This document shows, in pieces, positions 7,603-15,328 of a DNA stretch of 64,000 nucleotides. Position numbers and translations under genes: made by a program. The stretch covers positions 1,674,001-1,738,000 of the forward strand of contig NZ_JABBGH010000001.1 in assembly GCF_012927305.1 (NCBI RefSeq). Direction: 5' to 3'. A model generated the notes under the pieces. It was not told the DNA's origin. It saw only the letters and a list, made by a program, of their open reading frames with translations, and did no database searches. The DNA is from Hymenobacter polaris (GTDB lineage: Bacteria > Bacteroidota > Bacteroidia > Cytophagales > Hymenobacteraceae). Numbering within the stretch: the first letter of the stretch is position 1; each line of letters begins with the position of its first letter.

Positions 7603-8115
7603 CTAGGGCCTGGCGGGCCCAGTAGCCAGGCTATCGCGCAGGTGCCGCACCTGCCGGCTGAGGGCGGCGCTTTGGCACACCACCGAGCTGTGGGCCCGCA
7701 GCGCCACCGGCTGCGCCCCCACCGTGGCCAGCCGCCAGATGATGTCGCGGCTGTGCAGGTGCCAGGCGGCGGCTAGCGCGGGCTGCAGCCGCACCACCAC
7801 GGTAGCCTCTAGCAGCGGCTGGGGCGCTGCCTGGCTGATGGCCACCGGGCGCAGCTGCTGCAGGGCCCGCAGCAGGGGCGCCAGCGCGGCCATCGTGCGC
7901 AGCTGAAACGGGCGCACATCGCCGCCCAGCGGGCCGGGCAGCAGCGGGTACACCGTGATGCTTTGCAAATCGGCGGGGCGGGCCTGGCGCAGGGCGGCGG
8001 CCACTGCCGGGTAGGCATCGGGGGTGGCCGCCTGGCGCACCCACAGCCAGATGGCGCCCGCCACCAGCACGGCGGGCAGCAGCTTGAGCACGTCCAGGTA
8101 CACGGTTTTTTTCAC
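7603..8115 (-). CDS. Small membrane-anchored protein between kinase and regulator, function unknown
   Basis: 170 residues from a GTG start at 8115 (MKKTVYLDVLKLLPAVLVAG). One N-terminal membrane helix (about 10-27) is followed by an Ala/Leu-rich presumably periplasmic domain with short beta-like strands (SITVYPLLPG, LLEATVVVRLQPAL). It ends 49 bases before the regulator start and begins 27 bases after the kinase stop, so it is almost certainly cotranscribed with both. I do not recognise a family. Position suggests an accessory signal-input or modulating subunit of the two-component system. The frame is preferred over the competing antisense and shifted frames because of start position, spacing and the signal-anchor. 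Confidence 0.72.
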   Translation of the reverse strand: MKKTVYLDVLKLLPAVLVAGAIWLWVRQAATPDAYPAVAAALRQARPADLQSITVYPLLPGPLGGDVRPFQLRTMAALAPLLRALQQLRPVAISQAAPQPLLEATVVVRLQPALAAAWHLHSRDIIWRLATVGAQPVALRAHSSVVCQSAALSRQVRHLRDSLATGPARP

Positions 8116-9267: not shown

Positions 9268-9576
9268 GGGCTAGGCTAGCGAAAGTGAGGAGAAAGCATA
9301 AATCAGGCGGGCCCCTGGCCGCTGGGCAGCAGGCTAAAAATAAGGCGCGGCCCGGCGCGGCGGCCGGGGCCTAGGGGGTTATCCCACTCAAAGGTGGCGC
9401 CCCCTAGGCCCCGGCCCCAACTGCGGGTTGCCGAAGCGTTGGCGGCGGGCGCCCAGGCGTCGGCCGCGGCCGCTGAAGCGGGCGGACGGCGGGCTACCTC
9501 GACGGGGCGCCCGCAGCACCCTACTTACTCTATGCGCACTTCCTTACCTTTACTTTTACTACCTACTGCAGTGCCA
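9268..9576. other. 309-base divergent intergenic region
   Basis: Separates the leftward kinase gene from the rightward PAS gene, so it should hold both promoters. It is very G+C rich. A frame continues upstream of the PAS start through this region but reads as low-complexity Ala/Arg/Pro and is probably not coding. The one clear structure is the 17-bp inverted repeat listed separately. The last 45 bases are unusually rich in CTT/TAC motifs, compatible with a promoter, but no clean TAnnTTTG was found. Confidence 0.5.
9362..9416. repeat. 17-bp perfect inverted repeat built around two CCTAGG palindromes
   Basis: Left arm 9362-9378 (GGCCGGGGCCTAGGGGG) and right arm 9400-9416 are exact reverse complements separated by 21 bases. 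Each arm contains CCTAGG. It lies in the divergent region between the kinase and PAS genes. It could be a protein-binding site, a transcript hairpin, or the product of two motif copies in opposite strands. Confidence 0.85.
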
Positions 9577-10881
9577 ATGGCTTCCCTTGCGCTTCCCGTT
9601 GACTACCAACACCTTTTCCGTACGCTGCCCGAAAATTTCCTGCTCATCGGCCCCGACCCCGCCGCCACCATCCTCGACAATACGGATAGCCACGTGGGGG
9701 TGTCGCTGAAAAGCCGCGCTTCGGTGGTGGGCAAGCCTTTTTTTGAGGCCTACCCGGCCACCGACGAAAGCGGCGCCGCCGAAATTCGCAAGTCGCACCA
9801 GCACGTGCGCGAGCACCTGACGCCGCACACCATGCCCCTGATTCGCTACGACCTGGTGGGGCCCGACGGCCAGCTGGAGGAGCTGTACTGGCAAGCCACC
9901 CACTACCCGGTGCTCGACGAGCAGGGCCAGCTGCGCTACATTTTGCAGCGCACCCAGGACGTGACTGCCCAGCTGCGCGCCAGCCAGGCCGCCGACGAGG
10001 CCCGGCGCCGCCTGGCCGAGGAGCAGCAGCGCACCCGCTTCATTCTCGAAAGCCTGCCGGTGCTGGTGTGGACGGCCACGGCCAGCGGCCAGCGCGACTA
10101 CTTCAATGCCCGCTGGCTAGCTTTTACGGGCCAGCCCCTGGGCAGCCAGCTGCACGAAGGCTGGCTCGAGAGCCTGCACCCCGACGACCGCGCCCACGTG
10201 CGCCAGCAGTGGCAGGCTTCTATAGCCCAGGGCACGCCCTACCAAGTAGAGTACCGCCTGCGCCGCGCCGATGGCCAGTACCGCTGGATGCTAAGCCGGG
10301 CCACGCCCCAGCGCAGCGCCGCCGATGAGATTACGATGTGGGTAGGCGGCGTGGTTGACGTTCATGACCAGAAGCGGCTGGTGGAGGAAATTCTGGAAGC
10401 CAACGAGCAGCAAGCCGTGCTTTCCGACCAGGCCTACCAGAACTTTAAGCTGGTGCAGCAGCAGCGCCAGTTATTTTATAACCTGCTGCTGCACGCGCCC
10501 GCCCACATCTGCATTGTGCGCGGCCCCGAGCACCGCTACGAGTTTGCCAACGAAGAATTCCTGGCCTTTACCCAGGGTGTGCCCGTGATTGGTCGCACCG
10601 TGGCCGAGGTCTACCCCGAAACCGTGAGCCAGGGCCTGATTGCCGTGCTGGATAGGGTGCTGCAAACCAAGGAGCCCTACCGCGGCTATGAGCGCCCCCT
10701 TTACCTCTACGACCGCGAAGGACAACTGCAGGAGCACTTTTTCAACGTGCTCTACGATTGCTTTGAGGAGGATGGCCAGCCGGCCGGCGTCACGGGCTAC
10801 GCGCTGGACGTAACCGAGCTGGTACGCGCCCGCCAGCAGCTGCAGGCGCTGTTACCCCCCGCCGCCGAGGCCGCCAGCTAA
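9577..10881 (+). CDS. PAS-only sensory protein without an output domain
   Basis: 434 residues from ATG at 9577, chosen because the first PAS fold starts at once (VDYQHLFRTLPENFLLIGPD); an in-frame ATG at 9532 would add a hydrophobic 15-residue leader. It holds three PAS domains: about 5-125, about 150-275 (PAS_3 type: WLAFTG, SLHPDDRAHVRQQW, RRADGQYRWMLSRA) and about 305-425 (LLLHAPAHICIVRGPEHRYE). Short coiled linkers join them. It stops soon after PAS3 (LDVTELVRARQQLQALLPP) with no kinase, cyclase or methyl-acceptor domain. Families of this build normally feed a kinase, so it may act as a free sensor or be a shortened kinase. A CZB-like gene follows 49 bases downstream. Confidence 0.85.
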   Translation: MASLALPVDYQHLFRTLPENFLLIGPDPAATILDNTDSHVGVSLKSRASVVGKPFFEAYPATDESGAAEIRKSHQHVREHLTPHTMPLIRYDLVGPDGQLEELYWQATHYPVLDEQGQLRYILQRTQDVTAQLRASQAADEARRRLAEEQQRTRFILESLPVLVWTATASGQRDYFNARWLAFTGQPLGSQLHEGWLESLHPDDRAHVRQQWQASIAQGTPYQVEYRLRRADGQYRWMLSRATPQRSAADEITMWVGGVVDVHDQKRLVEEILEANEQQAVLSDQAYQNFKLVQQQRQLFYNLLLHAPAHICIVRGPEHRYEFANEEFLAFTQGVPVIGRTVAEVYPETVSQGLIAVLDRVLQTKEPYRGYERPLYLYDREGQLQEHFFNVLYDCFEEDGQPAGVTGYALDVTELVRARQQLQALLPPAAEAAS

Positions 10882-10930
10882 GCCCGGCCCCGCTCCTTTC
10901 CCTTTCTACTCCTCGACTGCACGCCCGGCT

Positions 10931-11281
10931 ATGGCGCTCACCGCCCTCGACTTTCAGCAAGCCCGCGTTAAGCAGGTCCTTTTTAAATCGCGCCTGCGCT
11001 CGGTGCTCTACGGGGTGCGCGCGGCCGAGCCTAGCTTGTTTGTGCTTAGCGAGAACCCCCTAAGCCAGTGGGTTGCCGCCTACCTCAAGCCCAGCTACGG
11101 CCCGCGCCCCGAGGTAGCGAGCATCGAGCGCCTGCTACGCCAAACCCTCGACACCGGCCAGGCCTTGGTGCGCCAGCACCAGCGCGGCGAGATGGACCAG
11201 GCCCGTCAGGGCCTGGAGCAAATTGAGCGCCTCGCCACTGAAATCGACGGGCTGCTGACGGCCATCGAGAAAAGCAGCTAG
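10931..11281 (+). CDS. Small helical protein resembling a degenerate CZB (chemoreceptor zinc-binding) domain
   Basis: 116 residues, all helical. The layout FQQARVKQVLFKSRLRSVLY, then PLSQWVAAYLKPSYG, then a helix near LLRQTLDTGQALVRQ copies the spacing of CZB domains (helix with H..W+, C..GxW, H..H). The expected His/Cys zinc ligands are replaced by Gln, Ser, Thr and Val; only one His remains (VRQHQRG). If it is a CZB relative it has lost zinc binding. It lies 49 bases after the PAS-only gene on the same strand and probably works with it. Family call is by eye only. Confidence 0.6.
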   Translation: MALTALDFQQARVKQVLFKSRLRSVLYGVRAAEPSLFVLSENPLSQWVAAYLKPSYGPRPEVASIERLLRQTLDTGQALVRQHQRGEMDQARQGLEQIERLATEIDGLLTAIEKSS

Positions 11282-14185: not shown

Positions 14186-14716
14186 ATGCCTACTTCTGAC
14201 GCCCTCCGCTATCCCATCGGCCCAGCGCCCTTGCTGCGCGGCCCCCTCACTCCGGCCGAGCGAGCCGACTACCAGCAGCAGTTGGCCGACTTACCCGCGC
14301 AGCTGGCGGCCGCGGCCCAGCGCCTGGGCCCCGAGAGCCTGGCCTACCCCTACCGCCCCGGCGGCTGGACCGGCCACCAGGTTATTCACCACGTGGCCGA
14401 CTCGCACCTCAACGCCTACTGCCGCTTCCGCCTGGCCCTGACGGAGGATAACCCCACCATCAAGCCCTACGACGAAGCCGCCTGGGCCGCGCTGCCCGAC
14501 GTGGCAACCGAGCCCGTAGCGGTGTCGCTGGCGCTGCTGGCCAGCCTGCACCAGCGCTGGGTGGCGCTGCTCGACCATCTGCCAAGCACCGACTGGCAGC
14601 GCACGTTTTACCACCCCGGCAATCGCCAGACTACCACGCTCGACCAGGCCCTGGCTACCTACGCCTGGCACGGGCGCCACCACCTGGCCCACCTGGGGCT
14701 GCTGGCAGGGGCCTAG
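14186..14716 (+). CDS. DinB-superfamily YfiT-like putative thiol (bacillithiol) transferase, copy 1
   Basis: 176 residues, a four-helix-bundle DinB fold. The metal ligands expected in this family are visible: His at 68-69 (HQVIHHVADSH) and the pair in WHGRHHLAHL near 162-166. It also has YRPGGWTGHQVIHH and RLALTEDNPTIKPYDE, characteristic of the YfiT/BstA branch. Members bind Ni or Zn and some transfer bacillithiol to electrophiles, but the thiol used here is not known. A close paralogue follows 57 bases downstream, a tandem duplication. Confidence 0.9.
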   Translation: MPTSDALRYPIGPAPLLRGPLTPAERADYQQQLADLPAQLAAAAQRLGPESLAYPYRPGGWTGHQVIHHVADSHLNAYCRFRLALTEDNPTIKPYDEAAWAALPDVATEPVAVSLALLASLHQRWVALLDHLPSTDWQRTFYHPGNRQTTTLDQALATYAWHGRHHLAHLGLLAGA

Positions 14717-14773
14717 GCAACCATTGGGCCGGCTGCGGGTTAGGATTAGGTTTTCGCCCTTTCCTTCTACTAT

Positions 14774-15328
14774 ATGACCTCGCCTAGCCCTTTGGCCGCC
14801 GATGAAGCCGTGCGCTTCCCCATTGGCCGCGCGCAGCTGCCTACAGCCCCGCTCACGGCCGCCGAGCGCGCCCCCTACATCCAGCAGCTAGCCGACCTAC
14901 CCGCGCAGCTAACCGCCACCGCGCGCCGCGTGGGCGGCGAGCGCCTGCAGCTGCCCTACCGCCCCGGCGGCTGGACCGGGCGCCAGGTTATTCACCACCT
15001 GGCCGATACGCACGCGCAGCTCTACAGCCGCTTCCGCCTGGCCCTGACGGAGGACAACCCCACCGTGCGCCCCTTCGACGAGGCCGGTTGGGCCGAGCTG
15101 CCCGACGTGGTCGCTACGCCCATCACTTTGTCCCTGAGCTTGTTGGATAGCCTGCACCAGCGCTGGGTAATCCTGCTGCAACACCTCAGCGAGGCGCAGT
15201 GGCAGCGCACCTTCTACCACCCGCGCTACCACACCACCCTCACCCTCGAGCAGGCGCTGGTGCAGTACGCCTGGCACGGCCGCCACCACCTAGGCCACCT
15301 GGAGCTACTGGACGAGCCGGTGAAATAG
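14774..15328 (+). CDS. DinB-superfamily YfiT-like putative thiol transferase, copy 2
   Basis: 184 residues, colinear with the preceding gene (the same YRPGGWTG, HQRWV, WQRTFYHP and YAWHGRHHLGHL blocks), so both come from one duplication. The metal-site histidines are kept in both copies (IHHLADTHAQ here). The differences lie in the N-terminus and in the loop after FYHP, suggesting that each copy may handle a different electrophile. It probably shares a transcript with copy 1, and a palindromic element closes the unit. Confidence 0.9.
   Translation: MTSPSPLAADEAVRFPIGRAQLPTAPLTAAERAPYIQQLADLPAQLTATARRVGGERLQLPYRPGGWTGRQVIHHLADTHAQLYSRFRLALTEDNPTVRPFDEAGWAELPDVVATPITLSLSLLDSLHQRWVILLQHLSEAQWQRTFYHPRYHTTLTLEQALVQYAWHGRHHLGHLELLDEPVK

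Follow-up and report, generated by a model that had tools for sequence, protein, structure and literature searches.

The CZB domain (PF13682), known from E. coli DgcZ, H. pylori TlpD and Salmonella McpA, is a four-helix bundle of about 115 residues, and the smaller of the two proteins considered here is homologous to it and has the same build. The main survey of CZB sequences (PMC8262984) sorts them into seven subgroups, and histidine kinases form none of these. In that survey CZB-only proteins make up 27.1% of the sequences, the zinc-binding Cys is about 100% conserved, which is held to reflect an absolute functional requirement, and much of the DgcZ homodimer interface is formed by the first helix. 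The signalling state of zinc-type CZBs is set by the zinc site, according to two further papers (PMC12871147, PMC13370339). Effector-less PAS sensors are also described: short LOV/PAS-only proteins such as Neurospora VIVID are reported to deliver their output via protein contact (PMC4433212, PMC4416707).

The window, by which we mean the whole 64,000-nucleotide stretch of DNA that was analysed, contains a gene for a PAS-only protein with a gene for a CZB-like protein directly downstream. The parts of the PAS protein are as follows.

9577 to 10881, plus strand: PAS-only protein of 434 residues with three PAS domains and no output domain (Pfam, AlphaFold model, orthologues)
9604 to 9960, plus strand: PAS domain 1, residues about 10-128 (secondary structure of the model)
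9964 to 10053, plus strand: connecting helix, residues 130-159 (AlphaFold model)
10054 to 10359, plus strand: PAS domain 2, residues about 160-261 (Pfam and AlphaFold model)
10363 to 10491, plus strand: long connecting helix, residues 263-305 (AlphaFold model)
10492 to 10809, plus strand: PAS domain 3, residues about 306-411 (Pfam and AlphaFold model)

In this protein Pfam finds PAS_4 (E 7.9e-25) and PAS_3 (E 1.1e-20) and no output domain, HisKA and HATPase included. The AlphaFold model, computed from 45 aligned sequences (mean pLDDT 90.1), resolves into three PAS folds linked by two helices, with a short final helix at residues 413-425. The gene start at 9577, not the GTG at 9394, matches the start points of homologues. 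An initial annotation of the sequence had described three PAS domains without a kinase or other output domain, and both Pfam and the model bear this out. The same annotation named the case that would count against it, homologues with a kinase domain lost here by a recent stop, and a search of 291 genomes of the order does not find that pattern. Sixty matches lie past E 1e-70. Fifty-two of these score at least 538 bits, all in frames of 420-598 residues, so that the close orthologues are of one size class throughout (52/52); the remaining eight score at most 397 bits and consist of the L069 locus PAS gene (464 residues) and seven matches in frames of 645-1566 residues. Kinase-sized frames score no higher than 336 bits, and all seven of the paired PAS proteins scanned with Pfam contain PAS families only, without HisKA or HATPase. 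A recently truncated kinase is thus ruled out by the size class of the close orthologues together with the PAS-only scans. Other matches within the window's own genome span one or two PAS domains at most. A similar PAS triad is held by a distant kinase (L238, 982 residues, 303 bits), and such kinases may be ancestors of the PAS protein.

The second gene begins 49 nt after the first.

10931 to 11281, plus strand: CZB-derived four-helix protein of 116 residues without zinc ligands (BLAST, alignment, Pfam on the paralogue, model, hhalign)

Judged from its sequence, this 116-residue protein is a descendant of a zinc-binding CZB domain. Neither the protein nor five of its relatives gives a PF13682 match in Pfam up to E 10, and NCBIfam gives no match for it. 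The kinship is seen through relatives. The sole other relative in the window's genome, L002, has 34% identity (BLAST E 1.6e-12) and is itself a Pfam CZB (E 1.9e-10) with the ligands H..C..HxxxH. A profile of 23 ligand-less proteins, compared by hhalign with 11 stand-alone zinc-type proteins from the window's bacterial family, aligns over 114 columns at 99.9% and E 6.5e-33. The likeness to CZB that the initial annotation had noticed in the helix spacing is therefore real by BLAST to the paralogue and by the profile-profile comparison it had suggested. The closest named relatives are Hymenobacter records at 79-82% identity, in a list from which the window's own record may have been omitted.

The model of the protein is a helical bundle (mean pLDDT 93.5). 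Its top structural match is the MID domain of E. coli DosC, a globin-linked cyclase (4zvc, Z 13.8, rmsd 2.4, 113 residues), and the CZB domain of DgcZ (3t9o) matches with Z 11.4 and rmsd 2.6 over 112 residues, values of Z that many unrelated helical bundles also reach. Because such bundles score about equally, structure comparison alone is insufficient to reveal the CZB kinship; for the same reason we claim no kinship with DosC MID, which, unlike the free-standing window protein, is the middle domain of a larger protein. Foldseek with the model returns nothing under E 0.001. A profile of the paired CZB-like proteins finds no CZB match among PDB sequences; the zinc-type CZB profile finds DgcZ there at E 0.00016.

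Alignment of the window protein to L002 places the former zinc ligands at four codons.

10973 to 10975, plus strand: Q15, in place of the first zinc His
11054 to 11056, plus strand: N42, in place of the zinc Cys
11135 to 11137, plus strand: L69, in place of the His with which the HxxxH motif begins
11147 to 11149, plus strand: L73, in place of the last zinc His

The initial annotation had noted that the His/Cys ligands are missing, and the alignment agrees across the genus: in 89 CZB-like sequences from 79 named Hymenobacter loci, the four columns are free of both His and Cys throughout (one row is gapped at the first). The columns read QNLL in 57 sequences, QNIL in 12, QNVL in 8, QSLL in 5 and close variants in 7; at three of the four, conservation is Q 85/89, N 83/89 and L 87/89. 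The 89 sequences contain no compensating Cys column and no widely shared His column, the only His column above 20% having His in 23/89. The protein is otherwise strongly conserved, with 24 of 115 columns invariant among these sequences and a first helix that is almost invariant across the genus. In the aligned sequences, loss of all four zinc ligands is fixed in the genus Hymenobacter, and on this ground the window protein is predicted not to bind zinc.

How well the gene pair is conserved was another question put by the initial annotation, and the pair proves to be a stable one. Some CZB-like match is present in 100 of the 101 genomes of the genus; counted from best E-values, it is of the strong kind in 88, meaning the kind that was ligand-less in every case where ligands were read. 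A PAS gene lies directly upstream of the CZB-like gene at 72 of the 79 named loci. The other seven comprise four at which no PAS gene is seen (L179, L187, L195 and L198), one whose PAS frame ends 337 nt upstream (L220), one at a contig end (L201) and one left unscored (L235). At L179, the ligand-less CZB-like gene is followed by a gene that by eye resembles a LytTR-type response regulator. Over the genera of the family, the distance from PAS stop to CZB start is 9-174 nt in 61 measured pairs, kept under a stricter distance rule than the loose one, on stop-to-stop frames, by which the ligand table labelled pairs. At L069 (3615-6166), a PAS gene has CZB-like genes on both flanks, with incomplete ligand sets (FNNT and HKHT).

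The PAS gene and the CZB-like gene are gained and lost together. None of the 13 genus genomes that lack an intact strong CZB-like match has a full-length PAS partner (one, G010, has a partial PAS match of 225 bits), and all 13 genomes having the CZB-like gene, hand-picked out of 88, have one of at least 560 bits; the 26 genomes are related and so are not independent trials. The entire pair is present twice in tandem in several genomes. Matching of PAS to CZB between tandem copies gives 24 concordant and 13 discordant comparisons (permutation P 0.054, borderline), with 83 of 120 genome comparisons set aside as ties; where the CZB signal is at least 0.1, a threshold picked after viewing the data, 13 of 13 are concordant. 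Species descent is a confounder of the overall PAS-CZB distance correlation (0.92). Residue coupling over 138 pairs (about 79 effective) has a maximum of 5.5 vs 4.8 in the closest of four shuffles, and its top scores are streaks typical of gaps. Damaged copies also occur: L132 has no PAS gene and no CZB-like start, and at L129 the PAS frame is split.

Among the matches listed outside the family, the strong hits of the ligand-less profile fall at the N-terminal ends of long proteins. All ten of these long proteins scanned with Pfam match CZB, PAS, HisKA and HATPase, with CZB below the curated cut-off in three and HisKA in one. The N-terminal CZB fused to multi-PAS histidine kinases occurs at 16 loci (L053-L068) in other families of the order. 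The kinase-fused CZB domains keep all four ligands in 16 of 16 cases, and the Cys and the last His are absent from all 63 paired CZB-like rows, of which 36 keep no ligand, 12 keep one and 15 keep two; one or two ligands remain in sister genera. Rows that are neither fused nor paired have all four in 11 of 14 cases, the exceptions being L129, L132 and the second L069 gene. The gene order is PAS then CZB in the pair and CZB then PAS in the fused kinases, and none of the matches listed joins the PAS protein to a ligand-less CZB in one natural chain.

A quick tree had 91 rows, among them 44 of the paired rows. A second tree was made with the ligand columns masked, without the long rows L069_5759, L150, L151 and L108 and with 3 of 17 far rows. 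In this masked tree the paired forms fall on one side of a branch with support 96/74, which is below the program's star level. On this tree the Cys changes once, the last His once, the first His twice and the remaining His five times. Because the paired form is one branch inside the zinc-type CZBs, the zinc site was lost in the paired form. The simplest history would have the Cys and the last His lost near the origin of the pair and the other two ligands eroded afterwards; this erosion is complete in the window's genus and in genus g5. With a single origin, pairing and ligand loss are linked by what counts statistically as one event. Family f48 of the same phylum has CZB-like genes that carry Ser where the Cys would stand (L144-L148, L156 and L157), in several loci next to full zinc-type CZB genes; a separate loss of the Cys may have occurred there.

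In the window's genus and a sister genus, free-standing zinc-type CZB genes (L002 at G000:C3:1084457-1084780, L153, L155 and L112) lie directly upstream of a CHASE3-HAMP histidine kinase. The zinc-type protein is possibly a subunit of this membrane kinase; given the adjacency, separate genes for a CZB and its presumed kinase are nothing unusual in this group.

The pair's neighbours in the window include a kinase with a His_kinase domain and a regulator with a LytTR domain (Pfam). The initial annotation had suggested that the pair may make contact with this divergent LytS/LytTR system, and the comparison of neighbourhoods goes against it: among the window and 64 others, a homologue of the LytS-like kinase occurs in one other neighbourhood (L132), where it does not adjoin the pair and the pair is broken. 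As the kinase adjoins no other pair in the 64 neighbourhoods, the system is unsupported as the pair's partner. Besides the pair, 16 gene families recur in at least 4 of the 65 loci, each in at most 14; some are spurious antisense frames of the pair, and there is no general third partner among them. Two other features were noted nearby. A 170-residue protein, for which no Pfam or NCBIfam family falls within the cut-off, is encoded on the minus strand at 7603-8115, with the LytS-like kinase on one side and the LytTR regulator on the other; at 14186-15328 on the plus strand, two adjacent similar genes of 176 and 184 residues, an apparent tandem duplication, resemble what we take to be DinB-type proteins.

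We are in little doubt that the two genes are a functional pair, and a zinc-independent role for the CZB fold is very likely. That the two proteins form a physical complex is probable, and on balance we lean towards reading the locus as a PAS-only sensor with a dedicated CZB-derived partner, the two acting as one unit by contact in trans. With Leu at two ligand columns and Gln and Asn at the others, as would fit a metal-free folded bundle, the CZB fold would not switch by gain or loss of zinc; it would stay folded without metal and serve as a dimerising or adaptor subunit, probably seated on the helices that link the PAS domains. The fold may have been kept for its contacts, because the first helix, a dimer contact in DgcZ, is nearly invariant here. 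The PAS protein is the obvious partner given adjacency, co-occurrence, joint duplication and the presence of CZB and PAS in one chain in related kinases. The PAS domains would read the stimulus, and the output would be contact with another signalling protein, for which the best candidate would be a PAS-containing histidine kinase; because the neighbourhood offers no candidate, the target is probably encoded elsewhere, and its being a kinase is a tentative proposal. Taken together, this suggests that the pair is a bipartite signalling device lacking its own kinase. More speculatively, a zinc/redox sensing domain may have split from its kinase relatives, lost its Cys first and become, family-wide, an obligate structural subunit of a PAS-only sensor that tunes other signalling proteins in trans.

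The CZB-like protein could instead still sense for itself, with the old zinc cavity binding another small molecule and the PAS protein transducing or gating the signal. The old ligand columns are indeed conserved at three of four positions, and the one or two ligands left in sister genera might permit weak metal binding there. However, the window protein has aliphatic residues at two of the four columns, where a packed core would fit better than a pocket, and no conserved Cys is left; we consider this reading unlikely. Also unlikely is the idea that the proteins are co-transcribed yet act separately, each with its own target. Four loci with the CZB-like gene alone leave room for it, as does a coupling signal made of gap-type streaks whose maximum one of the shuffles comes close to, but the two genes are jointly present or absent, the pair is duplicated jointly in tandem, and CZB is fused with PAS in related kinases.

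An accessory role in the divergent LytS/LytTR system would account for the adjacency in the window to a kinase and regulator with the appropriate domains; with the kinase homologue found in a single other neighbourhood, beside no intact pair, we regard this role as very improbable. Equally hard to credit is that the pair represents the decaying remains of a CZB-PAS kinase. Damaged copies at L132 and L129 and the similar PAS triad in distant kinases are what such decay might leave, but the frames are open and conserved over the family, invariant columns are numerous in the genus, the close PAS orthologues share one size class, and the gene order is unlike that of the fused kinases.

Read as a PAS-only sensor with a CZB-derived partner, the locus can be set beside the described systems. 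The window protein keeps the CZB surroundings of the former ligands (W47, KxxFK and LxxWx(0)); unlike PF13682 members it lacks the four ligands and a Pfam match, and unlike the CZB domains of chemoreceptors and cyclases it is free-standing, with a PAS-only neighbour. CZB-only proteins are likewise a free-standing CZB fold without any other domain, but the 3His/1Cys motif that PMC8262984 calls ubiquitous is missing here, and a fixed PAS partner gene is added. The CZB-multi-PAS kinases of L053-L068 have an architecture outside the seven subgroups given in that survey. Unlike VIVID, the PAS protein has three domains of PAS_3/PAS_4 type, shows nothing that points to a LOV photoreceptor, and comes with its own CZB-derived partner. 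In the literature searched, a limited collection, we came across neither a ligand-less CZB nor the PAS/CZB gene pair; within it, the pairing of a PAS sensor with a CZB fold without a metal site is new, both kinds of component being already known. The pair is a sensor without an effector in its own operon, and against a CZB Cys held to be essential it sets conserved CZB descendants with a dismantled site and a fixed PAS partner. It thus offers a natural experiment on zinc-independent CZB function, with graded steps in sister genera; if the reading is right, it is a natural CZB working without zinc in a kinase-free, two-subunit sensor.
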